49,473 bases of DNA from IMG/VR virus record IMGVR_UViG_3300032116_000316, positions 1 to 49,473 of that record, one strand, 5' to 3'. Under the pieces are notes generated by a model. The model was given only the letters and a program-made list of their open reading frames with translations. It did no database searches and was not told the origin of the DNA. This DNA is from a virus. Positions within the stretch are counted from its first letter, which is position 1. The number at the start of each line of letters is the position of its first letter. The translations under genes were made by a program, and so were the position numbers. Positions 4,747 to 49,473 of this stretch are shown here, piece by piece.

Positions 4747-7512
4747 TTATTTTTCGAAGAAGATACCTAAAATTTGATTTAGGGGAGCAAATGCACCTGT
4801 CAGTTTATAAGTGTTTCCACCATATACAAATACAATACCTTCATTTGGTACAATCTTATCAAATCCACCCAAAGCATTTAATCTTTGCAATTCTAATTTA
4901 AGTTTTTGTATTTGTTTAGGGTCACCACTTGCTTTTACCTGTTGTATAGTTGATTCCAATCTACTTACCATTTGTCTTTTGGCAGATTCTGGATTTGCTG
5001 TGAGAACTGAACTCATAAATGAAAGTACATCCGCACCAACTCCTAAAAATATTTCTTCAAACTTCATTAGATTTTGTTTTGATATTTTTTGTTGGTCTTG
5101 CTTATCAGTTTGTTCAGCCCAAGCTTTTAATTTAGCGTCTTGAATTGTATTAATACGGAATGATTTATCACCAAAAGCCCATCTTTTAACCAATCCTATT
5201 TTTTCTTGTGTATCTAATTTTTTACCACCCTTCTCTACAAAGTTTGCCCACCAAGCTTGATGATAATCAGCTACTCCATCTGAATCATTCAACCCAAACT
5301 CTTTTTGAAGTTTGTTTATCATTCCTATATACTTTCCTTGCAATTTGGTAAGATGTTCGGATTTAGGAAGTTTTTGCATTGGAGGTCCTTGAATTGTATA
5401 TTTCGATTGAACATGTCCATTCACCTGCTTAATCATACCAGCTAATATTTTAGCGGATTGTTGATTTTCTCCAATTATATTTCCTTCTTTATCATACTCA
5501 AACGTTCCGTGAAATACTAATAAAGGTTGTCCATACGGAATTACATTTACCGATGTTGGATATATTACTTCCAAATTCATAAAACAACTACCACCTTTGA
5601 ATATCATTTTACGTTGAGGTTCTGATAATTGTGATATTGCCTGAGAAAGGTCTTTCATAGCAAAATTATATGCATCTGTCAATCCACCCCTTCCTGCAAA
5701 CTTTTGTGCAACTTGTCCAATAGTCATTGCACCTTCACCTTTATTTTTAAGGTGAGATTTATTTCTTGCTGCAACCAATCTACCATTTACCCAACTTATT
5801 GCTAATGCTTGCCCATCGGTTTTTTCTCTTGCTAATTCCAAATCACCATTTAGTGCTTTAGTTACAATATTTTTAAGGTCACCAAATGTAAGATTCATTT
5901 CAATATCAAATGGATGGTTCATATGTCCATATGCACCACCTTCTAAAAGTAAACCCTCACTTAATGGAGTTTCTATTTTAGATAACTTACTATAATAATT
6001 TGGGTCTTCGTATAAATGGTCTAATGCAATTTCTTTTGCAACATCAATATCAGTTGTATGCTCTCTTTCTACCGCATATCCTTTAATAAATTCTTGCTTA
6101 ATATTTGCTACACTTACGTTGTGATGTTTAGCGATATCCGATAAAGTCATACCTTTAGCTAATCCACCAGGTATTTTATCTTCTTTTACTTTAGTGTATT
6201 CTTCACTACCATCTTTATCCAACTTAGATTTTAATTTATTAACATCTTTTGGATTTGGTGCTCCATTGATATATCCACCAGCCAAACTTAAACCAACACC
6301 TGCTCCGCCTGGCAATCCCATTTCATCTAACAAAGAATCTTCAAGCTCATCAATGATTTCGTTTATATCTTCTTTTGATATTATCTGAGTTTTTTGATTT
6401 TTAGGCAATTCCCAAAATCTTTTAGGTTTTTCTAAAGGTGTTTCTCTATTAACTTCTTGCCAATTTTCTATGGTGTGTGGGTCATCTGCTGGATTTAGTG
6501 TACTTTGAACTACATTTTGTACTTTATAAATTGCTTTTCTAAATTGAGATTCTTTATCTTTAGTTTTACCCCTACCCCTCATAGCATCTGCTTTAGGTTC
6601 TTGTAATTGAATATATCCACCTTGCTTATACCAATTTTCAGGTTTAGCTTTATTTAATATTCTTTTTTGTCCATCTGCAACAAATGACATATCTGGTTCA
6701 TCTCCAGCAGTAAAGCCACCACTTCCGCCAGTTGCTTCTTTTAGATTTTCTTTTTTAGGGATTCTAAATGTTACTGCTTTCTTACCATTGATTGTTGGCA
6801 TTCCCCATTCATCTTTTCCAATAGATTTAACAACAACTTTTTTGTTTTTAAATTTACCCATTAGGATTTGGTCACCAACCTTAACATTTAATTTAATTTC
6901 TTCGTTGATATATTCTTTTAAGGATTTAAGTTTGAGTGTTATTAATTTGAATATTTGCTCATCAAACTTAGGATATGCTTTTATAAAGCCTTTCTTTCTA
7001 TCAGCTTCAGTCCCAGCACTTAACCAATATCTTACATCAGTACCACTAATTGCATTTGGTTGTGCAGGTGAAGCATATACATATCCTTTATCTAAATAAG
7101 GTTCAGTAACTTTTCCTTTATATGGTGTAAAGTATTTTCCACCTAAACGATTTTGGTCTTTTTCTCCAACTACAGTTATAAAACCAGTAGTATCTTTATC
7201 ATATTTGTTTAGGATTTCTTCTGGTGCATACGGATTACGAATATTAACAATTTTGTTTGATGGAATACCAAACATCTTTGTCATTATAATTTTCTTTTCC
7301 TTAAAATTAAATGGAGATTTTTTTGAATCGGTTACATTTGAAGTTCCAACATAAACATTATCTTTTCCGAACTTCCTAACCAAATGGTCATACGTTGCGT
7401 AATGACCCTTATGAAATGGTTGAAAGCGGCCAGAATAGACAACAACTACTTTGTCTATCTTTGCCGCTTCTCCCAATATTGTTTCTATTAAATATTTTGC
7501 TAATCCCTTCAT
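4747..7512 (-). CDS. Multidomain tagged protein: NMN adenylyltransferase-like + DUF5661-like + nucleic-acid-ligase-like
   Basis: A 921-residue fusion. Residues 1-15 form a tag with two (L/I)xE sites (LIE 8-10, LGE 13-15). Residues about 20-195 are a nucleotidyltransferase of the NMN adenylyltransferase type: GRFQPFHKGH (28-37) holds the HxGH signature and ISGTDVR (155-161) the second nucleotide-binding motif. A small beta-rich segment covers about 205-255 and ends in NLKEA. Residues about 445-510 (GGLAKGMTLSDIA, then EHTTDIDVAKEIALDHL) resemble DUF5661, from memory. Residues about 525-921 look like an ATP-dependent ligase core: KTDG (564-567), FMNLE (644-648), EGIVF (891-895) and YKLTG (902-906). 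The possible cut LLLE|GGA at 524 is directly before this module. A cytidylyltransferase and a non-ligating ligase-fold protein are alternatives. Virion packaging is inferred. Confidence 0.82.
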   Translation of the reverse strand: MKGLAKYLIETILGEAAKIDKVVVVYSGRFQPFHKGHYATYDHLVRKFGKDNVYVGTSNVTDSKKSPFNFKEKKIIMTKMFGIPSNKIVNIRNPYAPEEILNKYDKDTTGFITVVGEKDQNRLGGKYFTPYKGKVTEPYLDKGYVYASPAQPNAISGTDVRYWLSAGTEADRKKGFIKAYPKFDEQIFKLITLKLKSLKEYINEEIKLNVKVGDQILMGKFKNKKVVVKSIGKDEWGMPTINGKKAVTFRIPKKENLKEATGGSGGFTAGDEPDMSFVADGQKRILNKAKPENWYKQGGYIQLQEPKADAMRGRGKTKDKESQFRKAIYKVQNVVQSTLNPADDPHTIENWQEVNRETPLEKPKRFWELPKNQKTQIISKEDINEIIDELEDSLLDEMGLPGGAGVGLSLAGGYINGAPNPKDVNKLKSKLDKDGSEEYTKVKEDKIPGGLAKGMTLSDIAKHHNVSVANIKQEFIKGYAVEREHTTDIDVAKEIALDHLYEDPNYYSKLSKIETPLSEGLLLEGGAYGHMNHPFDIEMNLTFGDLKNIVTKALNGDLELAREKTDGQALAISWVNGRLVAARNKSHLKNKGEGAMTIGQVAQKFAGRGGLTDAYNFAMKDLSQAISQLSEPQRKMIFKGGSCFMNLEVIYPTSVNVIPYGQPLLVFHGTFEYDKEGNIIGENQQSAKILAGMIKQVNGHVQSKYTIQGPPMQKLPKSEHLTKLQGKYIGMINKLQKEFGLNDSDGVADYHQAWWANFVEKGGKKLDTQEKIGLVKRWAFGDKSFRINTIQDAKLKAWAEQTDKQDQQKISKQNLMKFEEIFLGVGADVLSFMSSVLTANPESAKRQMVSRLESTIQQVKASGDPKQIQKLKLELQRLNALGGFDKIVPNEGIVFVYGGNTYKLTGAFAPLNQILGIFFEK

Positions 7513-7526
7513 ATAGTTTCTTACTA

Positions 7527-7535
7527 TATAAATAT
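7527..7535 (-). promoter_or_regulatory. Promoter-like motif ATATTTATA
   Basis: Exact copy of the recurrent 9-mer, 14 bases before the ATG of the 921-residue gene, in a 29-base gap. Confidence 0.5.
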
Positions 7536-7541
7536 TCGGGA

Positions 7542-7949
7542 TTACTCTTTTACAACTTTCATTGCTGATGCCGAAGAAACCTGCTTAGGTGCTTGATTTT
7601 CAGCCTGAGCTTGCATTTGTTTTCTAGATGGTGCTCCCGGTTGATATGTAATTGTACCATCTTGTAAATTAATTCTACCAGCTGGGTATTTTTCATCTAA
7701 AGCATCTAAAAATTCTCTTAATTCTAAATTTTTTGCTTTAAATTCATCATCAAATCTTTGTTGAAGGTCTTCCAAACCTTTCATTTCTTCAGTAATTTCG
7801 TTTCTTCTTATATAGATTTCTCCAAATCTTTGAACGATAACAGAAATTTCGTTATTTAAATTTTTAACGTTTTCAACAACTGATTCTTCTAATTTTACAG
7901 TTTCAATATCAACTGATTGCTTTTGTGGAATATTATCTAATCCTGCCAT
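7542..7949 (-). CDS. Coiled-coil protein, paralogue of the gene at 11746-11997
   Basis: A 135-residue protein of unknown function. Residues about 15-85 are a heptad-rich coiled coil, followed by a short conserved block LDEKYPAGRINLQDGTITY and a polar Gln/Ala-rich tail. The block closely matches LEKKYPAGEVDLLDGTVTY in the 83-residue protein at 11746-11997, so the two are paralogues. They bracket the sugar-transfer genes. A structural or assembly role with the nearby fibre is possible but unproven. Its own promoter-like motif lies upstream. Confidence 0.75.
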   Translation of the reverse strand: MAGLDNIPQKQSVDIETVKLEESVVENVKNLNNEISVIVQRFGEIYIRRNEITEEMKGLEDLQQRFDDEFKAKNLELREFLDALDEKYPAGRINLQDGTITYQPGAPSRKQMQAQAENQAPKQVSSASAMKVVKE

Positions 7950-7974
7950 AATTTTGTGTATTTATTTTTGTATA

Positions 7975-7983
7975 TATAAGTAT
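7975..7983 (-). promoter_or_regulatory. Promoter-like motif, variant ATACTTATA
   Basis: Lies 25 bases before the ATG at 7949, in the same 19-base context as the copy at 4718-4726. The leader also holds the ACACAAAA element just before the start codon. Confidence 0.4.
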
Positions 7984-7984
7984 A

Positions 7985-8374
7985 TTACTTTTTATTTTTT
8001 AAAATGTTAGATGTACTAAATCCTGATATTTTGCTGAAATACTCGATTTTTTCAACTAATTCGGCGCCTATTATTTGCTCGTAATTATAATCATTTCCAA
8101 TTACCATAATATCAGGTCTCCATTGTTTTATATGTTCTTTTAGAGTTTCATCAGAATCAAATGATACAACACTATCAACAAATCTAATACTTTTCATAAA
8201 AGCCATACGGTCTTTTAAATTATTATAAGGTCTATTTTCACCTTTTTTTTCTCTAACTCTTTCATCGGAATCTATTCCAACACGCAAAGTACCTAAAGCG
8301 GATGCAAATTCTAAAAGTTGAATGTGTCCTATATGTAGGATATCAAATGTTCCGTTTACCCAAATACGTTTCAT
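7985..8374 (-). CDS. HldE/RfaE-type nucleotidyltransferase (ADP-heptose synthase domain-like)
   Basis: A 129-residue protein matching the stand-alone C-terminal nucleotidyltransferase domain of HldE (heptose 1-phosphate adenylyltransferase) or a TagD-like cytidylyltransferase. Visible motifs are NGTFDILHIGH (7-17) with the HxGH signature, GIDSDERVREKKG (about 33-45) followed by RPYNN, VVSFDSDET, and GFSTSNI (118-124) near the end. Its stop overlaps the start of the heptosyltransferase-like gene by one base, so the two form a translationally coupled pair. This pairing favours ADP-heptose as product over CDP-glycerol. The kinase domain of HldE is absent, so heptose phosphate would have to come from the host. 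Confidence 0.85.
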   Translation of the reverse strand: MKRIWVNGTFDILHIGHIQLLEFASALGTLRVGIDSDERVREKKGENRPYNNLKDRMAFMKSIRFVDSVVSFDSDETLKEHIKQWRPDIMVIGNDYNYEQIIGAELVEKIEYFSKISGFSTSNILKNKK

Positions 8375-9519
8375 TATAAAAACTTTTTTAATTCATCAAT
8401 TACAATCTGGCCAGTTATAAATTTAGTACACTCAAATTGCCTATTTGTACCTTTATGTTCTGGGCACCAATTCCAATCCCCAGCATCTAATCTAATTCTA
8501 TTAAAGCACCCTTCGCATTTACCTGGTTGGGCACCTATACGAATACAATCTTCCATCTCTGCCCACTTGTAAGAAAATCCACTTATTAATACAGTAGGAA
8601 CATCTAATGACCAACTTAACCAACTTAACCCACTACCAATACCAATAAATGCTTGTGATTTTTTTAATTCATCCATTACTAATTCAATAGGCCCTTGTGG
8701 ATGATGTACAATTCCATTTGGTAATTTGTTTCCCATATAATCATCACCTTCTTTAGATAATAATTTTACAACATACCCTTTACTATTTAACCAATCAACA
8801 ACTTCTTGCCATCCAGTTGGATTGTTCCAAAATTTAGATTGAGCTGTACCAAATACACCAATACATACTTGTTTTTCTTTTTCTAACTTTGGATTTTTTC
8901 TTTTTAACTTTGGTTTAATTTCTTTAAAATCTAATCCCAAAATATCAGAACACATTTTTTGTAGTGTTACTGACTTAGGGTCAATAGGATTTTTAAAACG
9001 ATTTATACTATTGTCTTCATTATAAAATAAACCAATACAATACATAGCATATAAATTATCTGCAGTATCTCCAGGCTTAATAAATTCTATCTCTGGATAT
9101 TCACTTGCAAAAAAGTCATTCATAAATGTAGATGCTATTAATTTACAATTATGTTTTTTTCTAAATTCATCTAAGTATGGAAACCATGCCAATGAATCTC
9201 CTAATGCTCTCGAATCTAATGCAACATAAACTTTTTTATCAGTAGCATTATAATCAAATTCGTGCCATAGTTTTCCATTTTCATAAATTTTTAATTTCCA
9301 TTCTACAAAATATTCAATACTACACTTACACCAACAATTGTTATTTATTGTTGTTTTGTATTTTATTTCATTGGTTTTTTTATCTATAAACTCAACAGTA
9401 TATTTTGCCGTTTTAGGTCCTTTAATTTCTACAAAAGGACCTCTAACAAAATGATAATATACTTTATTTTGTTTTTCTAAAATAGTTTTATTATTTTTTT
9501 TTAAATTATCGTATATCAT
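8374..9519 (-). CDS. Autotransporter-type O-heptosyltransferase (BAHT/TibC-like)
   Basis: Predicted protein O-heptosyltransferase of 381 residues. Residues about 25-95 form a beta-rich N-terminal domain. The GT9-like core has ALGDSLAWFPYLDEF (about 106-119), FGTAQSKFWNNPTGW (about 223-237) and IGIGSGLSWLSW (about 292-303). The four-cysteine iron/zinc finger of the TibC/Aah family is present: CEGC (335-338), WNWCPEH (C352) and FECTK (C364). In bacteria this family adds heptose from ADP-heptose to serines of autotransporter adhesins. I chose the ATG at 9519, which shares a base with the upstream stop (TAATG). A TTG at 9528 would add three residues. Confidence 0.9.
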   Translation of the reverse strand: MIYDNLKKNNKTILEKQNKVYYHFVRGPFVEIKGPKTAKYTVEFIDKKTNEIKYKTTINNNCWCKCSIEYFVEWKLKIYENGKLWHEFDYNATDKKVYVALDSRALGDSLAWFPYLDEFRKKHNCKLIASTFMNDFFASEYPEIEFIKPGDTADNLYAMYCIGLFYNEDNSINRFKNPIDPKSVTLQKMCSDILGLDFKEIKPKLKRKNPKLEKEKQVCIGVFGTAQSKFWNNPTGWQEVVDWLNSKGYVVKLLSKEGDDYMGNKLPNGIVHHPQGPIELVMDELKKSQAFIGIGSGLSWLSWSLDVPTVLISGFSYKWAEMEDCIRIGAQPGKCEGCFNRIRLDAGDWNWCPEHKGTNRQFECTKFITGQIVIDELKKFL

Positions 9520-11702
9520 TAACTCCAAGTTTTAACTGTTAAATCTAATAATGAAAATCCTTCCGCTTGTCTACTATATTCTTTATTTGTAGTGTATCTA
9601 TTTTTGGGATGATTATAGAATACATGATTATACCAAAGGTCACCAACATCCCATCCACAATCTTTTATTCTATCCATCCACCATCCTTTAGTTCGGTTTG
9701 GTATTAAGTAAGCGTGTGCAAGATCTTGATTGTATGCGGTTTTTGAAAATAAATCATCCACTTTTTCTTTTCCTTTTGATGGGTTGTTAGCAAATGAAAT
9801 AAAATAAACATCATCTCTTTCAGATAAAAAGCATGCCTTATGTATAATATTTACAAACTCTTCTAAACCAGTATAAACAAATGCATCAGCTTCAAAAATC
9901 AATGTATAATCAAAATTTTCATCATCAATTGATTCCAATGCATTTCTGTGTGCCATATAGCACCCATAATGTCTACCGGTTATCCAACCCAATCCAGCGC
10001 CAGGATATAATTCACCTGGCTTATTATCTTTACTAATGTGTTCGGGTCTTCTACAATTTTCAGCTGGGGCAAATCCTTCATAAACTTTGTTATGTATTGG
10101 TTGATACACCATACCATATTTTTGTAATTGCTTTATTGATTGAATACTAACTTTTTCTCTCATATCATCAGGTCGAGTTAGCATATGCTTAATTTGAATT
10201 CTTGGTTTCTTTCTTATATAGGAACGAAATCCTTTAGTAGTTTGATTGTAAAAGAATTCATCAGCTGCTCTAGTAACACCAGGAAAATATGTACCACCAT
10301 AATCATCACCAGTAATATAACCACCTGGTTTTATTTTATTGTACCAAATATTTAAATCATTTGTAACATCTTCGTATGTATGACCTGCGTCAATCATCAT
10401 AAAATCTATACTACAATTTGAAAATTGATTTGCTGCATTTTTAGATGTATCTTTTATAATATCAAATGTATCGTAATTGTTTGACATTACAGTATTATCT
10501 ATAAATTCATAAAATATATCCCCATTAAAACTTCCTACAATATTTTGATGCAAATCTTCATTATCAGTTCCTTTAAATGTATCAATTGTTGTAAACTTAA
10601 TTTTTTTATTAGAATTTTTAATTTTTGCTGCTAAATAATTCGTAGATTTACCAAACCATGTACCAAGTTCAACAACATTTGCAAAAGGTGGAACTTTTTG
10701 TACAACTTCATCATATAAATCTACATAAGAAAACCAACCAGGTATTTCATTAAATTTTGGATTTAATTTTTCTAATATAATTCTTTTTGTAAGTTTTAAA
10801 TCATCATCAATATAAGTTACCAATGGATTATTATCATAGGTATCTAAATAGGTATGAAGTTTTCGAAATATACAATGTAATTTATAAGATAGTGCTTCTT
10901 TAATTGAAAGAGGATTTAACTCTAATTTTGAACTAAAATAAAAAAGGTCAGATGCTTCATAAAAAGTATCAACATCATCTCTCTCACCCCAAATTACACA
11001 ATTATCAGGAACAAATTCCATTAAGGGTGCCCAATAACTTTCATAATTCATAGCTTGGTTTCCAACAAAATGAAATTTAATTTTATATTTTTCCAATTGT
11101 CTTGCTATTGCAAATATTTCACCTTGATTTTTACCCGGTGAAAACAAACCTACCATCAATACATGCTTCCAATCAGATTCAAATCCTAATTTTTTTTGTG
11201 CTTCAACTTTGTCAAAAACATAATCTTCTATTGGGTATTGCCAAACCATAGTTTCAACACCTAAATCTGCATCATCAAATTTTTTCTTACTCCATTCAGA
11301 TACCAACACATATCTATCAGGTTGATAAATAATTTCTTCTGGATTTGTAAAAGAACCATGCGTACTTGCTAAAATAAAATACTCTCTATCTTTTGAAAAT
11401 ATTTTATCTAATATAAATGGTGCTAAATCAAATTGTGGAATCTCTTGGAAGTGAATAATATCTGGCTGAAAATTTTTTATTATAGAAAGTATTTCGGATT
11501 TATCTTCACCCAATGTATGTACCGATACTAATTTTTTAATTCTATTTTTTTGTACTACAAACGCATTACCACCACTGTTGTTTATTTCAACAACTTCGAT
11601 ATTAAAATCATTAATAAAATGTTTAATTTGTTTGTATGTATATTGCGGTTGTCCACCAGTAGATAGGTGCGGACAGACATAAAGTAACTTTTTCTTTTCC
11701 AT
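9519..11702 (-). CDS. Trifunctional glycosyltransferase-methyltransferase-glycosyltransferase fusion
   Basis: A 727-residue protein with three apparent enzyme modules. Residues about 1-310 resemble a GT4/GT-B glycosyltransferase (CPHLSTGGQPQY near the start, VGLFSPGKNQGE, and the acidic pair in LELNPLSIKEAL). Residues about 325-490 are a class I SAM-dependent methyltransferase of the Methyltransf_24 type (VVELGTWFGKST, TTIDTFKG, MIDAGHTYEDV, IKPGGYITGDDY). Residues about 535-727 resemble GT25 (LGWITGRHYGCYMAHRNAL and LIFEADAF). No signal peptide, so cytoplasmic. The ATG at 11702 is preferred over an upstream TTG at 11714. The gene is coupled by TAATG to the heptosyltransferase. Substrates unknown; the modules probably act in sequence on one glycan. 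Confidence 0.87.
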   Translation of the reverse strand: MEKKKLLYVCPHLSTGGQPQYTYKQIKHFINDFNIEVVEINNSGGNAFVVQKNRIKKLVSVHTLGEDKSEILSIIKNFQPDIIHFQEIPQFDLAPFILDKIFSKDREYFILASTHGSFTNPEEIIYQPDRYVLVSEWSKKKFDDADLGVETMVWQYPIEDYVFDKVEAQKKLGFESDWKHVLMVGLFSPGKNQGEIFAIARQLEKYKIKFHFVGNQAMNYESYWAPLMEFVPDNCVIWGERDDVDTFYEASDLFYFSSKLELNPLSIKEALSYKLHCIFRKLHTYLDTYDNNPLVTYIDDDLKLTKRIILEKLNPKFNEIPGWFSYVDLYDEVVQKVPPFANVVELGTWFGKSTNYLAAKIKNSNKKIKFTTIDTFKGTDNEDLHQNIVGSFNGDIFYEFIDNTVMSNNYDTFDIIKDTSKNAANQFSNCSIDFMMIDAGHTYEDVTNDLNIWYNKIKPGGYITGDDYGGTYFPGVTRAADEFFYNQTTKGFRSYIRKKPRIQIKHMLTRPDDMREKVSIQSIKQLQKYGMVYQPIHNKVYEGFAPAENCRRPEHISKDNKPGELYPGAGLGWITGRHYGCYMAHRNALESIDDENFDYTLIFEADAFVYTGLEEFVNIIHKACFLSERDDVYFISFANNPSKGKEKVDDLFSKTAYNQDLAHAYLIPNRTKGWWMDRIKDCGWDVGDLWYNHVFYNHPKNRYTTNKEYSRQAEGFSLLDLTVKTWS

Positions 11703-11745
11703 AAATTGTAACAAATATACGAAATATTTTTGAGATTACCAAATA

Positions 11746-11997
11746 TTAATAGGTAACTGTTCCATCTAGTAAATCAACTTCCCCAGCAGGGTATTTTTTC
11801 TCCAAATCATTCAAAATACCATTAAGTTCGTTTGTTACCTCAAAATAATCGGATTCCATATTTTCAACTACACTTTGGAGTTGTTTTAATTCCAAATGTA
11901 ATTGTCCTATGTTTACTACTAAATCTGTTTGTTTTTGTCTCAATTCTTTGATTTTACCTATCAAAGATTCTTCTAATTTTTCAACTTGCTTTTCCAT
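11746..11997 (-). CDS. Short coiled-coil protein, paralogue of the gene at 7542-7949
   Basis: An 83-residue protein, nearly all coiled coil (residues about 1-65), ending in LEKKYPAGEVDLLDGTVTY. That block matches the conserved block of the 135-residue protein at 7542-7949, which has an additional tail. It is transcribed just downstream of the 2448-residue fibre gene. Function unknown. Trimeric coiled-coil attachment or a fibre-assembly role would fit the position, but nothing in the sequence proves it. Confidence 0.75.
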   Translation of the reverse strand: MEKQVEKLEESLIGKIKELRQKQTDLVVNIGQLHLELKQLQSVVENMESDYFEVTNELNGILNDLEKKYPAGEVDLLDGTVTY

Positions 11998-12033: not shown

Positions 12034-15000
12034 TTAAGAATTCAATTTATTTTCTAAATCTTTGACTTTTTGTGATAATTCTTGTACAGCTTTCCATAAT
12101 ACAAATACTAATTCTTGTTTAGCAATACCAGAAGTCATCCATTTTTTAGGTCCTTCTGGATTATCAGGATCTTCAAACCAATCATAGTCTACATATTCTT
12201 CCAATCCACCTGCTTCCAATTCTTCAGCAATTATACCTATTTGTTGCGGTCTTTTTTCTGCATCTTTATCAATTTTCCAATAATAAGTCCTTATTGGTAC
12301 GTTATTTACAGCATCTAATATAGATGGATGTTGCCAATCTTCTATTTCTTCTTTAAATCTTCTTGCAGATGTATTTCTACCAACTCTCCAAGTAGATAGT
12401 GATATTTCCATACCTCTAATCGTACCTCCACCAGGACTACCAACATTATTTAATATAATTGCAGGTCTAACTCCACCATCAACATAAGTTGTTATTATAC
12501 CAGAATTACCTCCAGGATTCCAATTTATAGCTCCACTACCCAATTCAATATTATTGCCATTCATAGCAATTTTACCAGTACTAGCTGCTATATCAATAGC
12601 AGTTCCACCAGTTGTGCCACTTAATCCTAAAATTGAATTTGTACCATCACCAACTAAAGTAATCCTGCCTTGCCCTGATAAAATAGGTAAAGCAGAATTT
12701 CTTTCTAATTTAATATATCTCGTTTGTGATGTTGCGATTTGAATACCATCATTTGTAAGTTCCGTAACATCAATATTTTTTGAAGCTCCTATTGCTGGTG
12801 TGTTTATATAAAAATATACGTTAAACGTATCACCACCAAAACCACCTCCAGTTAGGTATTGATAACCTTCTACTTCTATAAACCATTTTAGTTCATATTG
12901 AGTTGATGCTTCTTCTGGTGCGGTAAAACTAAAATTACCACTATATCCATTAATTGTGGATGAATATTCACCAACACCACCATTCCAATAAGTACTAGCT
13001 ATATAACCCGTTGCAACTAAAGAACTATCAGAAACTTTATATATATGATATCCCCAATATGCGTTTACATATCCTGTTCTGTTATTTGAATAAATAAAAT
13101 CATAAAAAGATGGATATGTCACAACAGAATCAAAATATGTACCACCCGTAACTGTAAATGTACCAGCAGAAATTTCATATACCTCATTCAAAGTTACACC
13201 TGAGGTAAAGTTATCAGAATCAGAAAAAGATACTGAACTTATATTTAATGTACCTCCTGCTAAATTTGTTAGCGTACCTGCGTTTATTTTTAATTGAGTA
13301 ACTCCTGCTGTTTTTAACTCAATACCCGGTAAGTTTGGATTTAAAAATATTCGATTTCCATTATCTTTTAAATTTTGGTTTTCATCAACTTCCCAGTTTC
13401 CAATTTCTCCAGCAGTTGCAAATACTTTACCAGACATTGTTACATCGGTAACAGAAAGACCTGTGTGTCTTAGTGCAAAGTTAGGTCCAACTAAACTTCC
13501 TGTACCATTTGCATCAAGCAATAAAGCCACACCAGCACTACCCGTTCCAACTTGAACCGAATCTCTAAATATACCACTCGCTCCATTAATATTTCCCCTA
13601 AAATATGCATTACCAGATGAATCTACTGCAAATCCTTGCGTTCTAATTGAACTTCCAGCTAAATTAATAAAAGTACCAACCGATGAAAAATATGGATGCG
13701 AACCTGCTACATAATTTGTAGATTGAATAGCAGTACCAGCAAACATATTTGCAACAATAACACCAGGTCCAATAAATGTTGTAGCATTACCACTATTAAT
13801 AGAATTAATAGCTGCCATAGCACCCAATGAACCACTTAATGCATTTACAGCTACTGCCGTTTGTACAGCTGCCACACCTATTGATGTTGCCGAACCAGAA
13901 GCAACCGAACCACTAACTGCATTTTGCGTTGCTGCATTACCGCCCGTTACTGTTATATCTCCTGCAATTTCCAATCCACTACCATTCCATTTTAGGTATC
14001 TATCTTGTGCGCCATTTACAATAGAGAATCTACCAGTAGTACCACCAGACCCAATTGGTTGTTCATAAATTCCTAAGAATATACCCGGTCTAGCATAACC
14101 AATAACAGCCTGCCCAGTAGTATAATTTCCACCGGGATTTAAAGTTGTACCAGCAGTACCAGATGTACCAACCGTTGCATTTTGTCCAATAGCAATATAT
14201 GGGTCAGTTCTACCACCAGCAATTACAATGTTTGCAAATGCACCAGTACCATTTACAGTACCAACGTTAATCGTATTCTTAACATAAGATTCTTCAAATA
14301 TTGCAATCTTAGCTGCTACGAAAAATTCTTCTTGTCCTAAAAATTCCCAAAAATCAGGTTGTGTATCAGGCTGCTTTGCTCCAATTAAATTAAATCCGCC
14401 AGGAGGAGATGCACCAACATAAAATGTGGATGTTGTTGGATTTACATATGTGTTTGGACCCGAACCACTAACTGCTGCGTAGTAATTTGTAGTACCAGGA
14501 ACTGCGTTATAAATTACAGCATCTCTACGATTATTTGTTGTTTCAACTTGTCCAATATAATCAGTTTGATTACTCCACTCACCTCTCATTACAATACCAG
14601 GCCCTACAGCGCCTTCAAATTGAATTGATAAAGATTGTGTTTTATATAAAAGTTGTCTTCCTTCACAATTAATTTCATAAACAATTTCTGCTGTTGGATT
14701 ACTATCAGGATCTGTCCATCCAACAATACCAGGGAATGTTGCCGGATTGCCCGGAACTAATGAGTTTGGTGCTAATGCACCACCTAAAGTTATATGAGAT
14801 GATTTTGAATAAATTTCAACTTGACATTGATTTTTATATCCCCAATTTCCATAAGCATCTCTTTGTGTAGTCCCCCACCCAGTAGGTCTATGTGTTAATT
14901 CTTGATTACCTCTATAAACTCTTATTATATTAGATGTACTTCCAAATTCTAACTCACCAGAAACTCTATATACAATTGATGAGTTTTCATTTTGCATTTT

Positions 15001-18000
15001 TACATCATACGGAGCGGGTGGTGTAAACTGAACAGATATTGATTGTGTTACAAAATCAATTTGTCTTGCTTTTTCATAATCAACTTTATAAACAATTTGT
15101 GCAGAAGTATTAGTTGCCCAGCCATCCCAATCATATAAATCACCAATTGTTGCTGGGTTGGATGGTGGAAATTTAGTTTCACCAATTGGAGAACCAACTG
15201 CACCAGACATTGTTACGAAGCCCGGTTTTGAAAATATTGATGCTGATGAGAACCCTAAATTACCGATAAAATTACCTAAATAATCATAAACTTCTTGAGA
15301 AGGTACATAAGATGATGTATTATTTAATTGATTAATTCCTTTAAATGTGGTTATTTTTATACCAGTTCCAGTTAAAGTTTTATCCCATAAATCTCCAGTA
15401 ATTGAGCAGTTTTCATTTGTAGCAGATAATTTGTAAGCATCTGCTCCAGCTTTTACACCAACTATTGTAAGTGATGATTGTGCTCGTATTGGTGCGGTTG
15501 ATGCATTATTACCATCCCTAATTCTTACAGTCCAAGTTGAATTTTCACCCGGCCCAGTAATATCACCACCACCAACTTCTAATGTTGCGTATTTAGAATT
15601 TGGAGCATCTTCTCCCACAATACCAGAATAATCAATATCATCTTTAAAAAACTGAAACCAAACTGCTCCAGTTGTATTTGTTGCTGTTGCTGTTAATGTA
15701 ATTGGGTCCAATGGAGCCGTTACAACACCATCTCTATCAAAGTTTACAGTTTCATAAGTTGCTTTTAAATCTACATTTCTAGCGTTTGGTGGCGCAACGT
15801 TTTTAGTAAATGTTTGAGTTCTTTGATATATTGATGATGTGTATAAATGCCCAGCACCCAATGCAAATGGATATACTTGAATAGTATAAACTGCACTTCC
15901 GGATACATAAGGATAATCAAATCTATTGAAATTTAATGTAGCTGTACTCAATGAAGATGATGATAATGAACCTGTTCTTATATTCCAAATTCCACTATTT
16001 CGTGTTTCAACAGAATTTATTCTCCAAGTTCCTGGTGCTACTGAGCGAGTTGTGAAAGTAAGAAAATCATCACCTTCTTTTACTGTTATTGTAGTATTGG
16101 CGTTTGTATAAGTTGAAATATAACCAACTTCATCCGCAGGTATCGCAACTGATGTAGGTGATATTACAATTTGAATTGGTGGCGCACCTTCTAAAGTTTT
16201 ATTATATTGTTGTACAAAACTACCCGTATAAACAGAAGATGTATAATATGGTTGTATCTCTAAATTATATGTAACACTTCCACTCAACTGAGTCATATCT
16301 GATGCTGGTCCAATTCTTAATGAACCAGTATTATCTGCATTAAATCCAATTGGTGAAAGTGAATTTAAAACTGTACCGGGAGTTATAGAACTTCCTGTAA
16401 TTGATGATTGCGCTACCCAGAAAGTACCCGCTACTCTACTTGATGTAAACGAAAGGTATCTTGAACCTTGCTTAATTTTTATATCAGTAATTGATGCAGA
16501 ATAACTTGTTACTATACCTCTTGAGTTAGCATTAAGGTTTACTACCGCAGGACTAACTTCATAAATAATTGTTTCATCACCAGGTTTACCTTCTGGTACA
16601 ATACTAAATACTTTTGTTACGTTTACTGACTCAGATGAGTATGGTTCTAAATAAGTTGCCGTTACCGTAAGTGTTTTACTTTGTGATAATGGAGAACGTA
16701 CATATGAACCCAAAGGTAATGATGGTATTATAAAATTATTATCATCAGTTGCTACAACACTAATATCCGCATTTACACTTGATGTATAATAATACATCCA
16801 ATATTCAGGAACAAAATCCTTATTAATTGACATTGATGGGAATACAAATACTGATGCTGATATTGGATATAAATTTGTACCCCTTCTATAAAATGATGCA
16901 GTTGCTGATGCTGATGGTGGTGTAAATGTATTTGATAATCTTGGATTAATTGTAAATGTATCATTATCATAAACAAATACACCCGCATCCAATCCATCTA
17001 ACAAATCAGTAAGTGTCAACGTTGTTAAAATAGAAGCTGAGTAATTTATTGAACTAGATGGTATTAAATAAATTGTTCTCTGACCATCTATTGAATCTCT
17101 ATTAAATGTAGCGTTGTAATTTAATTCTTTAGAACCACTCACACCCGGATAAACTCCTTTTAAAAAACCACTAGCCGATGCTTCACTTAACAAAAGATAT
17201 TTAGAACCAGACAAAACGTGCATTTGAACCAAAGAACGACCAGATGGTAATCCTGCTCTTAAATTAATTTCATTAATACCATCTATACGAATTGCCTGTA
17301 CCTCTAGCGAACCGGATGGGTCATTGTTTCGTATTGTTGTTCCTCTATAAGGTCTAATTTCAAAATTCACACCACCTTTACCATCAACAACTCTTGTAAT
17401 AACAATAGTATCGGTTACACCTTCACATTCTCCAGTAAATTCAATAAATTGAACAGGTATATCTTCTCTTGAACCTGTAAAGTTTTCTACCGTTAATCTT
17501 ACCGTATCCAATTCTCTATCTAATAATAGTCCGGGAAATTGACCAGGCGTATATTGAGATTGTGATAATTCATTATTAAAAAAGTCAAAAGAACGTGATG
17601 TAAAGTTTACTGAACCTGTTAAATAACTTTTTACAATATCAATGAATATTGTTGTTGGTGGAACTGGATTACCAAATCCAGAACCAGAATCAAATTGAAA
17701 ATATAATGAAGATGGTATTAGTTGTAAATCTTTATTAATTACATTTAAATTACCACCATCAAATGTTTTACTTTCTTCAACAAGAACAGGAATGTAATTA
17801 TTGTTTATATCATAAAATTGAAATCTAAAATCAAATGTTTCTCTTGGTAAAGTTCTTGGTATTGGTTGTACAAAAGATATTTCGTTTGGTGAGAATGAAC
17901 TTTCTTGAGATGCTCTTAAACTCACATCTGATAAATGCCATCCTAACCCTTTTACTTCAACATATAATTTTGCATTATCAATTTGTTCAGATTGAAAATT

Positions 18001-19380
18001 AGCTGTTATTTGCGATTTTTGCAATAAACTATTATCAGATGTTACTGTTAAAATATTTTGAGATACTCCTGTTGTTACATTATTTGATGTTCTAGAGCCA
18101 CTTATAAAAAATTTAATATAGTTTGCTTTAGATAAATTTTGTGTAAGTCTTGTATTAAAAGTTAAAGTATATTCCGTATTTTGTGTTACATCAATTGATT
18201 TGGATGTAAAGAAATTATATGCATTTGCACCATTACCATCTAATTTAACCGAATTAAATAAGAATGTTTGATTAAATGATGTTTGTAAATCATTTGATGA
18301 TGTTATCCAATAATTTTTAAAATTAAATTGGTCAAATATACCATAAAATTCTTCGTTCTTTGTAGTGGACTCTAAATCTTTTAATAATTCATTTGATTCT
18401 AATTGAATTTCTTGAATGAATTGATAATCCGCTAAATCGGATTGAGATTTTCTATAAATTTTTACTCTAGCAACATCACCAACAAATGTTTCTAAATCGC
18501 TTATTGTAATTTTTGCAAAAGAACCTGTTAAAGCCGTTTTTAAATTATCAACACCTTCTACATAATTAAAAGATGCTGTATATCTTGTATTATCAAAATC
18601 CGATACAACTCCATTTGGAGCATAGGGTGAAGCTACTCTTAAATTTGTTTTATTTACAACATCATCAGCTAATAATGATACACCTAAATCAGTAAACTCC
18701 ACATATGTTCCAGCTACAGATCCAGTCCAAGCACTATTATCTGTTGTTGTTACTAAATAAGATGTTGGTAAAGTATAATCTGAAAGTTTTGTACCAATTG
18801 TAGGAGTTTGTGCAGTTCCTACCGCAAAACCTTTTTGAATAATAGGTGTTACTATGTTACTAAAAATTGGTTTTACAATTTCGTTAATTGAAATTTCCGG
18901 TCTTCTATAAAATCTTACTCTATCTTCGTTTGCTAATAATCTATTAATTGTAAATTCTCTTTCCCACTTTAGGTTATAAACATTTTTCCATTCTTCTGGT
19001 ATTTGCTGTAATATTCCATTTTCATCAACATATGTTTTTAACTCACCTAAAATTGTAATTTTAGCATTTCCAATTGGAGTATCTTCATAAACATAAACAG
19101 CAATTAATTTTGATACACCTTCATAATATTCAGGTATACCATTACCGGGTTCATAATAAACTGGATTTCCGTTTACATCTAAAATTTCAATTTTAATTTC
19201 AGTTGATTCTTTTAAGTGTTCAGAACCCTCTATTAAGAATCCATTTTTACCTCCAGTGAAAATATCTTTAAACTCGGTAACTCTAAAATACTTAGAATTT
19301 ACATCCGTATCAGTAATGTATGTCTGAAATAAAGTTAAATTTTGTGTTAAAACTTCTGGGTATTTTTTTATTATCGCCAT
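12034..19380 (-). CDS. Giant tail fibre / receptor-binding protein with Peptidase_S74 chaperone end
   Basis: A 2448-residue virion fibre, the largest gene of the window. The N-terminal ~180 residues are likely the attachment part. The middle is a chain of Ser/Thr/Asn/Gly-rich beta domains. These include two Ig-like repeats (each with an I.V.P..V.. opening, near residues 950 and 1060). Downstream are two tandem copies of a longer domain (about 1330-1600), each with NEN(C/S)SI near the start and NPAT...GW...A(Q/E)IVY...TQS(I/L)S(V/I)QF near the end. A glycine/serine-rich shaft follows. The last ~120 residues are an intramolecular chaperone of the Peptidase_S74 family: RNTSARRFKEEI holds the Ser/Lys autocleavage pair, then a terminal coiled coil. 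Self-release of the chaperone after trimer folding is known for this family. Receptor specificity is unknown. Confidence 0.92.
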   Translation of the reverse strand: MAIIKKYPEVLTQNLTLFQTYITDTDVNSKYFRVTEFKDIFTGGKNGFLIEGSEHLKESTEIKIEILDVNGNPVYYEPGNGIPEYYEGVSKLIAVYVYEDTPIGNAKITILGELKTYVDENGILQQIPEEWKNVYNLKWEREFTINRLLANEDRVRFYRRPEISINEIVKPIFSNIVTPIIQKGFAVGTAQTPTIGTKLSDYTLPTSYLVTTTDNSAWTGSVAGTYVEFTDLGVSLLADDVVNKTNLRVASPYAPNGVVSDFDNTRYTASFNYVEGVDNLKTALTGSFAKITISDLETFVGDVARVKIYRKSQSDLADYQFIQEIQLESNELLKDLESTTKNEEFYGIFDQFNFKNYWITSSNDLQTSFNQTFLFNSVKLDGNGANAYNFFTSKSIDVTQNTEYTLTFNTRLTQNLSKANYIKFFISGSRTSNNVTTGVSQNILTVTSDNSLLQKSQITANFQSEQIDNAKLYVEVKGLGWHLSDVSLRASQESSFSPNEISFVQPIPRTLPRETFDFRFQFYDINNNYIPVLVEESKTFDGGNLNVINKDLQLIPSSLYFQFDSGSGFGNPVPPTTIFIDIVKSYLTGSVNFTSRSFDFFNNELSQSQYTPGQFPGLLLDRELDTVRLTVENFTGSREDIPVQFIEFTGECEGVTDTIVITRVVDGKGGVNFEIRPYRGTTIRNNDPSGSLEVQAIRIDGINEINLRAGLPSGRSLVQMHVLSGSKYLLLSEASASGFLKGVYPGVSGSKELNYNATFNRDSIDGQRTIYLIPSSSINYSASILTTLTLTDLLDGLDAGVFVYDNDTFTINPRLSNTFTPPSASATASFYRRGTNLYPISASVFVFPSMSINKDFVPEYWMYYYTSSVNADISVVATDDNNFIIPSLPLGSYVRSPLSQSKTLTVTATYLEPYSSESVNVTKVFSIVPEGKPGDETIIYEVSPAVVNLNANSRGIVTSYSASITDIKIKQGSRYLSFTSSRVAGTFWVAQSSITGSSITPGTVLNSLSPIGFNADNTGSLRIGPASDMTQLSGSVTYNLEIQPYYTSSVYTGSFVQQYNKTLEGAPPIQIVISPTSVAIPADEVGYISTYTNANTTITVKEGDDFLTFTTRSVAPGTWRINSVETRNSGIWNIRTGSLSSSSLSTATLNFNRFDYPYVSGSAVYTIQVYPFALGAGHLYTSSIYQRTQTFTKNVAPPNARNVDLKATYETVNFDRDGVVTAPLDPITLTATATNTTGAVWFQFFKDDIDYSGIVGEDAPNSKYATLEVGGGDITGPGENSTWTVRIRDGNNASTAPIRAQSSLTIVGVKAGADAYKLSATNENCSITGDLWDKTLTGTGIKITTFKGINQLNNTSSYVPSQEVYDYLGNFIGNLGFSSASIFSKPGFVTMSGAVGSPIGETKFPPSNPATIGDLYDWDGWATNTSAQIVYKVDYEKARQIDFVTQSISVQFTPPAPYDVKMQNENSSIVYRVSGELEFGSTSNIIRVYRGNQELTHRPTGWGTTQRDAYGNWGYKNQCQVEIYSKSSHITLGGALAPNSLVPGNPATFPGIVGWTDPDSNPTAEIVYEINCEGRQLLYKTQSLSIQFEGAVGPGIVMRGEWSNQTDYIGQVETTNNRRDAVIYNAVPGTTNYYAAVSGSGPNTYVNPTTSTFYVGASPPGGFNLIGAKQPDTQPDFWEFLGQEEFFVAAKIAIFEESYVKNTINVGTVNGTGAFANIVIAGGRTDPYIAIGQNATVGTSGTAGTTLNPGGNYTTGQAVIGYARPGIFLGIYEQPIGSGGTTGRFSIVNGAQDRYLKWNGSGLEIAGDITVTGGNAATQNAVSGSVASGSATSIGVAAVQTAVAVNALSGSLGAMAAINSINSGNATTFIGPGVIVANMFAGTAIQSTNYVAGSHPYFSSVGTFINLAGSSIRTQGFAVDSSGNAYFRGNINGASGIFRDSVQVGTGSAGVALLLDANGTGSLVGPNFALRHTGLSVTDVTMSGKVFATAGEIGNWEVDENQNLKDNGNRIFLNPNLPGIELKTAGVTQLKINAGTLTNLAGGTLNISSVSFSDSDNFTSGVTLNEVYEISAGTFTVTGGTYFDSVVTYPSFYDFIYSNNRTGYVNAYWGYHIYKVSDSSLVATGYIASTYWNGGVGEYSSTINGYSGNFSFTAPEEASTQYELKWFIEVEGYQYLTGGGFGGDTFNVYFYINTPAIGASKNIDVTELTNDGIQIATSQTRYIKLERNSALPILSGQGRITLVGDGTNSILGLSGTTGGTAIDIAASTGKIAMNGNNIELGSGAINWNPGGNSGIITTYVDGGVRPAIILNNVGSPGGGTIRGMEISLSTWRVGRNTSARRFKEEIEDWQHPSILDAVNNVPIRTYYWKIDKDAEKRPQQIGIIAEELEAGGLEEYVDYDWFEDPDNPEGPKKWMTSGIAKQELVFVLWKAVQELSQKVKDLENKLNS

Positions 19381-48208: not shown

Positions 48209-49473
48209 TTAAAAAACCATTTTAGAACCAATTTGGAAGTTATTCATCAAATTAAACTTTGGTTCTAATGACATAACCGCTTTATAGGATGCAGAAAATG
48301 CAAATCTTCTACTTAATCGGTAATCAAATCCGCTACCCACTATAAAACCAGGTGTTCTGGTTACCATAGTTGCCTGTGTGAATGTATTAAAACTAATTGG
48401 AGAATTCATAAAGAAAACTTGCGGAGATATAGTAATCTTTTTATTGTATTGATATGGTTTAGTCCAAAATGCCACAAAAGATGTCATCAAACTCAAGTCA
48501 TAACCACTGCCATCCATCTTCTTCATCTCTAATCCAATTAAACCCACATTATAACCGTATGTTCCGTATTTTGGATGTGGTTTGATATAAGTGTATCCCA
48601 ACATCTGCATTAACGTTCCTTTAAGGTATGCAGCCGTTACTGAGTATGAATGTATTGCGTTTAGTTTACCCTCTTCAAAGTCCATCTTTGTCATACCACC
48701 ACTTAATGCAAATTGGTCTAAGGTACTCCAAACTAATGCCGTAGCTGAATATGATTTATCACCCATTAGAGATGATTTAGAAATACCAGCACTCATCATT
48801 ACGGCATACTTTCCTTCCGCATCTTCCGTACCTGCTAAATCAGATGAAAGCATCATTGGATTAGCTCCAACTTTTTTCTCTTTCTTTTTTTCTTCTTTTT
48901 TCTTTTCTTCCTTCTTCTCCTCTTTCTTTTCCTCTTTAGATTCCTCTTTCTTTTCTTCCTTTTTTTCTTCCGATTTTGATTCTTCTTTCTTTTCCTCACT
49001 CTTGCTTTCGGATTTTGATTCTTCTTTAGATTCGGATTTACTTTCTGATTTTGTTTCAGATTTAGTTTCACTCTTTTGTTCCGATGAAGATGAACTACCT
49101 CCGCTAGATGAACTTCCCTCCGATGATGAACCACCACCTCCGGATGAAGATGATGAACTACTTGATGATGAACTACTACTTGAAGATGAAGCGGTTGAAC
49201 CACTACTTGCTGGCGGTGGTGAAGATGATGTTGGTGGTGGAGTTGATGCCGCCGATGAAGCCGCTGCTGATGATGCTGAACTACTTGCGGCAGAACTTGC
49301 TGATGAAGATGCTGCTGAACTTGCAGCCGATGAAGCTGCAGAAGCGGCTGCTGATGCAGCTTGAGAAGTTGCCTGATTTACAGTTTGGTTTACTGTCTGC
49401 TGAACAACTTGGTTTGTAGGACATCCCATAGTTGAGTATGCTGCATAAACTCCATTTAACCAAGCCTGAACTA
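48209..49473 (-). CDS. Low-complexity Ser/Ala- and Lys/Glu-rich protein with beta-strand-rich end (5' partial)
   Basis: The first internal ATG is at 49429, but the frame stays open to the right edge (reading VQAWLNGVYAAYST before that ATG), so the start probably lies outside the window. The visible part has a Gln/Thr opening, about 90 residues of Ser/Ala then Ser/Gly repeats, about 70 residues of Lys/Glu/Ser repeats, and a C-terminal ~200-residue beta-rich domain. That domain shows alternating strands (SYSVTAAYLKGTLMQMLGY, GSGFDYRLSRRFAFSASY) and ends in phenylalanine (GSKMVF), as outer-membrane barrels do. An outer-membrane or virion-surface protein is possible; a signal peptide cannot be judged without the missing end. 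Confidence 0.72.
   Translation of the reverse strand, partial: VQAWLNGVYAAYSTMGCPTNQVVQQTVNQTVNQATSQAASAAASAASSAASSAASSSASSAASSSASSAAASSAASTPPPTSSSPPPASSGSTASSSSSSSSSSSSSSSSGGGGSSSEGSSSSGGSSSSSEQKSETKSETKSESKSESKEESKSESKSEEKKEESKSEEKKEEKKEESKEEKKEEKKEEKKKEEKKKEKKVGANPMMLSSDLAGTEDAEGKYAVMMSAGISKSSLMGDKSYSATALVWSTLDQFALSGGMTKMDFEEGKLNAIHSYSVTAAYLKGTLMQMLGYTYIKPHPKYGTYGYNVGLIGLEMKKMDGSGYDLSLMTSFVAFWTKPYQYNKKITISPQVFFMNSPISFNTFTQATMVTRTPGFIVGSGFDYRLSRRFAFSASYKAVMSLEPKFNLMNNFQIGSKMVF

Follow-up and report, generated by a model that had tools for sequence, protein, structure and literature searches.

The question raised by the locus described here is which protein a phage would O-heptosylate. The locus lies in a 49-kb virus record of IMG/VR (IMGVR_UViG_3300032116_000316; the whole stretch of 49,473 nucleotides was analysed and is called the window in the following), in which all genes of interest are encoded on the minus strand. 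One of them (8374..9519) encodes a protein of the BAHT family, enzymes that have so far been described as modifiers of bacterial autotransporters, and a putative nucleotidyltransferase (NTase) gene is located at 7985..8374. The two open reading frames (ORFs), both of which are present at these positions on the minus strand, had been read in a first-pass annotation as a protein O-heptosylation pair that probably acts on the neighbouring giant fibre or another virion protein. The explanation favoured here, with a probability of about 0.63, is that a phage module O-heptosylates collagen-like appendages of the virion. The enzyme belongs to a phage-centred BAHT branch that is paired with collagen-like proteins and represents a variant of a known enzyme family.

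The membership of the 8374..9519 product in the TibC/AAH (BAHT) family is near certain. The protein comprises 381 amino acids (aa) from the ATG at 9519; a TTG at 9528 begins a longer ORF, and residue numbers given here count from this TTG. It scores 287.7 bits against NCBIfam TIGR04414, the 'autotransporter strand-loop-strand O-heptosyltransferase' family (curated cut-off 200 bits), and 202 bits (E 8e-59) against TibC (4rap/4rb4) in a phmmer comparison, and the similarity to TibC and AAH extends over the whole length. The AlphaFold2 model (pLDDT 87) contains the N-terminal beta-barrel, the GT-B core and the finger insertion expected of a TibC fold. Its best Foldseek matches among solved structures are all TibC chains (4rap, TM 0.84); for WaaC and other lipopolysaccharide heptosyltransferases, TM values are about 0.4-0.5. 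The finger cysteines C338, C341, C355 and C367 align with C339, C342, C358 and C370 of TibC, and the catalytic and donor residues D111, T228, K232 and W303 correspond to TibC Asp110, Thr226, Lys230 and Trp305. All of 60 phage-type enzymes compared have the catalytic Asp, Lys and Trp, and 59 of them have the four cysteines. The annotation as a BAHT/TibC-like heptosyltransferase with a four-cysteine finger is borne out by the family score, the fold and the alignment of all four cysteines.

With ADP-heptose as the donor, TibC-type enzymes heptosylate Ser but not Thr. In TibC, Arg286, which is reportedly highly conserved among family members, contacts the adenine and is needed for activity, and residue 300 sets the heptose stereoselectivity (PMC4358343). 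The window enzyme differs at both positions: V284 replaces Arg286 and G298 replaces the Pro/Ser of position 300, where Gly is found in 51/60 phage-type and Ser in 18/20 canonical enzymes. Details of donor use may therefore differ. Further differences from TibC and AAH are the placement in a separate deep clade, the location in a phage genome and the neighbourhood of collagen-like appendage proteins instead of self-associating autotransporters. The window protein thus belongs to the BAHT family without being an 'autotransporter' BAHT, because no TIGR04415-type match was found in the proteins scanned and the members of its clade neighbour collagen-like genes. In a tree of 81 sequences, phage-type and autotransporter-type BAHTs are split by a long branch (100% SH-aLRT). 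Within the phage clade, next to the window lineage, the BAHTs of Methylococcales and Polaromonas are grouped together with full support.

The first hints of a collagen-like partner were a GTSG protein encoded divergently from the BAHT operon of a 735-kb phage and GTSG runs in the fibres of window relatives. Of 80 loci from genome collections, four have Ser/Thr-rich collagen-like ORFs; all four belong to the seven loci that are closest to the phage enzyme, and the 73 others have no such ORF. Several of these seven are probably phage contigs binned in metagenome-assembled genomes (MAGs). Five BAHT loci whose records bear the titles of bacterial or archaeal MAGs (L085, L087, L088, L090, L091) resemble phage contigs, with structural genes and glycosyltransferase (GT) cassettes, and are probably binning contamination. 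The BAHT loci of a Polaromonas (L086) and of a member of the Methylococcaceae (L089) sit among ordinary bacterial genes. A search of 401 genomes of the family of the former and 301 genomes of the order of the latter recovered ten intact phage-type and eight canonical BAHTs. A collagen-like GTSGTSG gene adjoins nine of the ten phage-type BAHTs vs none of the eight canonical ones (Fisher ~2e-4, calculated by hand). The collagen-like neighbours have a signal-peptide-like N-terminus, and several of the eight canonical BAHTs adjoin repeat-rich, autotransporter-like proteins. In L089, the BAHT occupies 7959-9143 and the collagen-like protein 6904-7854. Canonical BAHT loci with a Ser/Thr collagen-like ORF amount to 0/42.

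The adjacency is no by-product of common GTSG genes, since matches to a GTSG pattern, searched genome-wide, are concentrated beside the BAHT. This applies to every match in three genomes (G001, G149, G218) and to most matches in four others (G050, G145, G002, G191); G133 and G134 have additional clusters away from it. The pattern search yielded zero matches genome-wide in G205, the exception without a collagen-like neighbour, and in G192. The latter, a Methylococcales genome, carries a fragment of a phage-type BAHT with an internal TGA stop (L339), which looks like decay with loss of the acceptor.

Phage loci were collected by scanning viral contigs. With the window BAHT as query, 80 of 113 relatives were kept, all of them retrieved by BAHT similarity. 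Further scans used the BAHTs of a marine Flavobacteriales-binned contig (80 of 138), of the 735-kb phage (3) and of the Microcystis phage Mel-JY01, whose record gives Microcystis elabens as the host (80 of 300); in INPHARED, only four records match the window BAHT. After dereplication at 85%, the BAHT loci of at least 9 kb from outside the window clade were compared with terminase-anchored loci of the same mean length. The latter lack any BAHT (0/59) and can therefore be used as a control, not as a within-clade 2x2 test. A Ser/Thr collagen-like ORF was found in 41 of the 55 BAHT loci vs 4 of 33 controls (Fisher p=1e-8). Conversely, among 120 loci found solely by a GTSGTSGT-coding DNA pattern, 10 contain a BAHT. 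Uninterrupted Gly-X-Y runs in BAHT loci range from 18 to ~2000 residues. Ser occupies 62-63% of the Y positions of the collagen-like runs, Thr is the commonest residue at X, and proline accounts for less than 1%.

In the window clade, a long collagen-like gene is located directly after the major capsid gene, ~17 kb downstream, and not near the BAHT. The window ends at the portal gene, ahead of the major capsid gene, and its own collagen-like gene is predicted from its relatives: such a gene follows the major capsid gene in all five window-clade contigs that cover this stretch. The encoded post-capsid protein has 652 aa with dozens of GTSG triplets in one relative (L523) and at least 1175 aa in another (L524). 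A 136-kb relative of the window (L525 1-19001) encodes two giant collagen-like proteins, one of at least 3970 residues with ~400 Gly triplets and the other of at least 1662 residues with ~200. GIY-YIG-type homing endonuclease-like ORFs are found between the major capsid and the collagen-like gene in two contigs (L526 8413-9021, L529 4716-5279).

The genomic context of the BAHT gene is conserved. Along the direction of transcription, the window encodes a 2448-aa tail fibre with a C-terminal Peptidase_S74 chaperone (12034..19380; 31 bits), an 83-aa coiled-coil-like small protein (ORF 11746..11997; weak coiled-coil matches only) between the fibre and the glycosylation genes, a 731-aa enzyme with GT4, Methyltransf_24 and GT25-like parts (9519..11714, likely ATG at ~11702; Pfam), the BAHT and the NTase, followed by other genes including those for the terminase and a T4-type portal protein. 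Synteny was found in 80/80 relatives, with terminase and portal genes downstream wherever the contig extends. Homologues of the 83-aa ORF (median identity 36%) are encoded in 78 of the 80 loci, and the BAHT is preceded by the three-domain enzyme in 78. The fibre gene is syntenic with the BAHT gene in 49 relatives, mostly those with enough upstream sequence on the contig. The stop codon of the BAHT gene and the start codon of the NTase gene have one base in common (TAATG), an overlap that is kept in 35 of the 39 NTase-bearing relatives; the proposed translational coupling of the two genes is thereby supported. A TAATG with one common base also joins the stop of the three-domain enzyme to the likely BAHT ATG at 9519. 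A 921-aa protein encoded at 4747-7512 (-), with homologues in 78/80 relatives, combines an N-terminal cytidylyltransferase/NMN-adenylyltransferase-like domain with DUF5661; in Mel-JY01, too, a cytidylyltransferase-like gene lies between the BAHT and the terminase gene.

The NTase (129 aa) has the cytidylyltransferase fold of HldE-C/HldC-like proteins. Its best matches are PHROG 7878 (131 bits) and TIGR02199, rfaE domain II, which is the best curated family although the score of 109 bits remains under the cut-off of 181.5. Glycerol-3-phosphate cytidylyltransferase (TIGR01518) reaches 67 bits, well under the HldE-type score. The gene is present in 39 of the 80 syntenic relatives, where it is followed by a PfkB-type kinase gene in 24, occurs alone in 14 and is cut in one; 40 relatives have neither gene and one further locus is cut. 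The best match of the kinase is HldE domain I (TIGR02198; 87-90 bits, far under the 345-bit cut-off), and its position directly after the NTase favours heptose activation over CDP-glycerol synthesis. These data agree with the earlier annotation of an HldE-type NTase, which shares with the HldE C-terminal domain and HldC the HIGH motif, the size and, in many relatives, an adjoining HldE-N-like kinase. It differs from them in its score, as a separate polypeptide, in the reversed gene order relative to HldE and in the lack of a kinase in the window. The NTase probably catalyses a step of ADP-heptose synthesis, and a split HldE set goes with the BAHT in part of the window clade.

By terminase identity, the NTase-less genomes resemble a separate lineage; no NTase was found elsewhere in four contigs without a BAHT-adjacent one, all of which are fragments. 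In sets of 20 large records of other BAHT phages, which overlap, an HldE-C-like gene was found in five and a gmhA-like gene in three. A 636-kb phage that also encodes a BAHT carries a gmhA-like gene above the curated cut-off (W03, LR756504, 430182-430640). ADP-heptose supply is a recurring but optional part of the module, because the NTase and kinase or the HldE-C-like and gmhA-like genes are found in only some BAHT phages. Of the annotated pair, the BAHT holds, together with the coupled three-domain enzyme; the NTase is missing from about half of the syntenic relatives and is therefore not an obligate partner, and the kinase is optional as well.

The three-domain enzyme, with its sugar O-methyltransferase-like Methyltransf_24 part, probably extends and decorates the glycan. 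Foldseek matches to MeT1/SpnH/MycF and to BshA are only supportive, given the low confidence of the model (pLDDT 61). A GT4 domain is encoded near the BAHT in 28/29 loci of the window clade and in 21/30 and 23/37 dereplicated loci of other phage groups, compared with 0/59 controls and 0/12 Methylococcales loci. Because GT4 accompanies the BAHT in phages but not in Methylococcales loci, phages probably build a longer, methylated glycan, and the bacterial version may stop at heptose. In other phages, fusions of the BAHT with GT4 or methyltransferase domains are frequent (L083 4870-7086; L082 4750-8430; L248-L312), and the BAHT protein exceeds 550 aa in 27 of 37 dereplicated Mel-type loci. A BLASTP comparison of the Mel-JY01 fusion protein with the three-domain enzyme of the window gave no meaningful match, though both hold GT4 domains.

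What is observed is the family of the enzyme, its catalytic residues, the coupling and synteny of the genes and their genomic pairing with genes for collagen-like proteins; the identity of the sugar, the acceptor, the modified site and the biological role are inferred. The TibC-type enzyme would use a nucleotide-activated donor, most likely ADP-D,D-heptose, to heptosylate Ser of Gly-X-Ser/Thr repeats in collagen-like proteins; this would probably take place in the cytoplasm, before the virion is assembled or during its assembly. The HldE-C-like NTase and, in some relatives, the HldE-type kinase would supplement the donor pool, with the earlier steps (GmhA, GmhB) contributed by the host or encoded at another site of the phage genome. 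The glycan would then be lengthened and methylated by the coupled GT4/methyltransferase/GT25-like enzyme. Collagen-like virion appendage proteins are quite likely the acceptor; in the window clade, the main one would be the product of the gene that directly follows the major capsid gene, outside the fragment, and the giant fibre, which has short GTSG elements, may be another. As the appendages contain hardly any proline, the triple helix may be stabilised by the sugars, which may also tune adhesion, protease resistance or shielding. Triple helices without proline would gain hydration and stability from heptosylated Ser at Y positions, similar to what has been proposed for glycosylated BclA (PMC8968730). 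A more far-reaching version is offered tentatively, at somewhat less than even odds: the deep BAHT branch may be a dedicated 'collagen O-heptosyltransferase' that spread through aquatic phages, was passed to bacteria and heptosylates Y-position Ser of nearly proline-free Gly-Thr/Ser-Ser repeats, the sugar taking over the stabilising role of hydroxyproline in animal collagen. Passage from phages to bacteria is suggested by the nesting of the Methylococcales and Polaromonas enzymes inside the phage clade.

Several observations count against heptosylated collagen-like appendages. Long collagen-like runs are missing from the window itself, and longer contigs were searched for such runs in view of the few Gly-X-Y (GXY) elements in its fibre. 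Two of the five informative relatives have a post-capsid protein with only ~2 GTSG triplets, one of these genomes encoding giant collagen-like proteins elsewhere. Collagen-like proteins of identical triplet composition are also encoded in some control loci that lack a BAHT, so that composition alone is not specific. In the association tests, the loci share ancestry, the control represents one phage group and some flanks are short. The 2448-residue fibre could instead be the main acceptor, its Ser/Thr-rich beta regions being heptosylated like the beta-helices of AAH/TibC autotransporters. It lies upstream in the direction of transcription, is rich in both residues (9.4% S, 9.7% T) and keeps its synteny with the BAHT in many relatives; GTSGTSGTS or longer runs occur in several orthologous fibres, in the region that in the window fibre contains the element GTSGTAGTT. 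This element (residues 1738-1746, 14143..14169), GSGGTTGRF (1777-1785, 14026..14052) and GLSGTTGGT (2252-2260, 12601..12627), each of nine residues and all encoded on the minus strand, are the only GXY elements of the window fibre, which may therefore be a minor acceptor at most. Autotransporter-type repeats were rejected, as neither the fibre nor the other large proteins scanned match TIGR04415-type models, and the bacterial phage-type BAHTs pair with collagen-like genes in the absence of such a fibre. The fibre as main acceptor is thus unlikely. The claim of a phage module that O-heptosylates a virion protein stands in kind; the acceptor named in it gives way to collagen-like Gly-X-Ser/Thr appendages. 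Likewise, the fibre is upstream of the pair but not directly adjoining it, as the 83-aa ORF and the 731-aa enzyme lie between them, and the functional unit is therefore larger than a pair. At 48209-49429 (-), the window further encodes a protein in which long low-complexity stretches of Ser/Ala and Lys/Glu/Ser precede a C-terminal region resembling an outer-membrane barrel, which is odd in a phage; the wider open frame contains 21.9% Ser. This Ser-rich protein was rejected as an acceptor, as it is without GXY runs.

A target on the host surface, lipopolysaccharide or a host protein, modified for example to block superinfection, is very unlikely. It would fit the inclusion of lipopolysaccharide heptosyltransferases in family GT9, to which the window protein has weak similarity, and the HldE-like nucleotidyltransferases of many cyanophages. 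The protein is, however, of the TibC type with an iron finger and not WaaC-like, its gene is embedded between fibre and terminase/portal genes, and the BAHT pairs with collagen-like genes. With regard to the enzyme, Arg286 of TibC is conserved in 20/20 canonical but only 18/60 phage-type enzymes, and the nucleotide could therefore differ. The glycosyltransferase might use a donor other than ADP-heptose, or the NTase might make another nucleotide-sugar, in agreement with both substitutions in the donor pocket, with the NTase score under the HldE cut-off and with glycerol-3-phosphate cytidylyltransferase among the next families. Given the HldE-domain-I-like kinase directly downstream in 24 relatives and the invariant catalytic residues, this alternative is considered doubtful. 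Burkholderia BimC, a BAHT relative, binds iron and its autotransporter and was reported to be without transferase activity (PMC6439308). A corresponding non-enzymatic role as a BAHT-fold adaptor is extremely improbable for the window protein, as the catalytic residues are retained in 60/60 enzymes and donor-synthesis genes are linked to the BAHT in half of the clade.

The proposed O-heptosylation of collagen-like appendages has partial parallels in known systems. Glycosylated BclA of Bacillus spores likewise bears sugar on a collagen-like surface protein, which is thought to aid hydration and stability of the triple helix (PMC8968730); no BAHT is described there. Bacterial collagen regions are reported to be rich in proline and threonine (PMC8968730), whereas the runs described here are Ser/Thr-rich and nearly proline-free. 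Mycobacteriophages also carry glycans on virion proteins (Freeman 2023, cited in PMC12619734), but the C-termini of capsid and tail-tube subunits are modified, and neither a BAHT nor a collagen-like acceptor is mentioned (PMC12619734). Core glycosyltransferases and possible virion glycosylation are discussed in a 2025 paper on aquatic 'moraphages', in which heptosyltransferases are not mentioned. A search of an open-access library found no paper on a phage BAHT, on the pairing of a BAHT with a collagen-like protein or on modified collagen-like phage proteins of the GTSG type. In Mimivirus, collagen glycosylation follows a hydroxylysine-directed chemistry as in eukaryotes, and the transferase is unrelated to BAHT. 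The likeness to the present case is that of a virus glycosylating its own collagen (PMC8968730).

If the pairing holds true, many aquatic phages would make glycosylated collagen-like appendages with a dedicated enzyme of their own. This would offer a simple answer to the question of how nearly proline-free phage collagens are stabilised and would add a new class of acceptors to a structurally solved enzyme family. The bacterial version would provide a self-contained pair of genes suited to expression and testing in E. coli.
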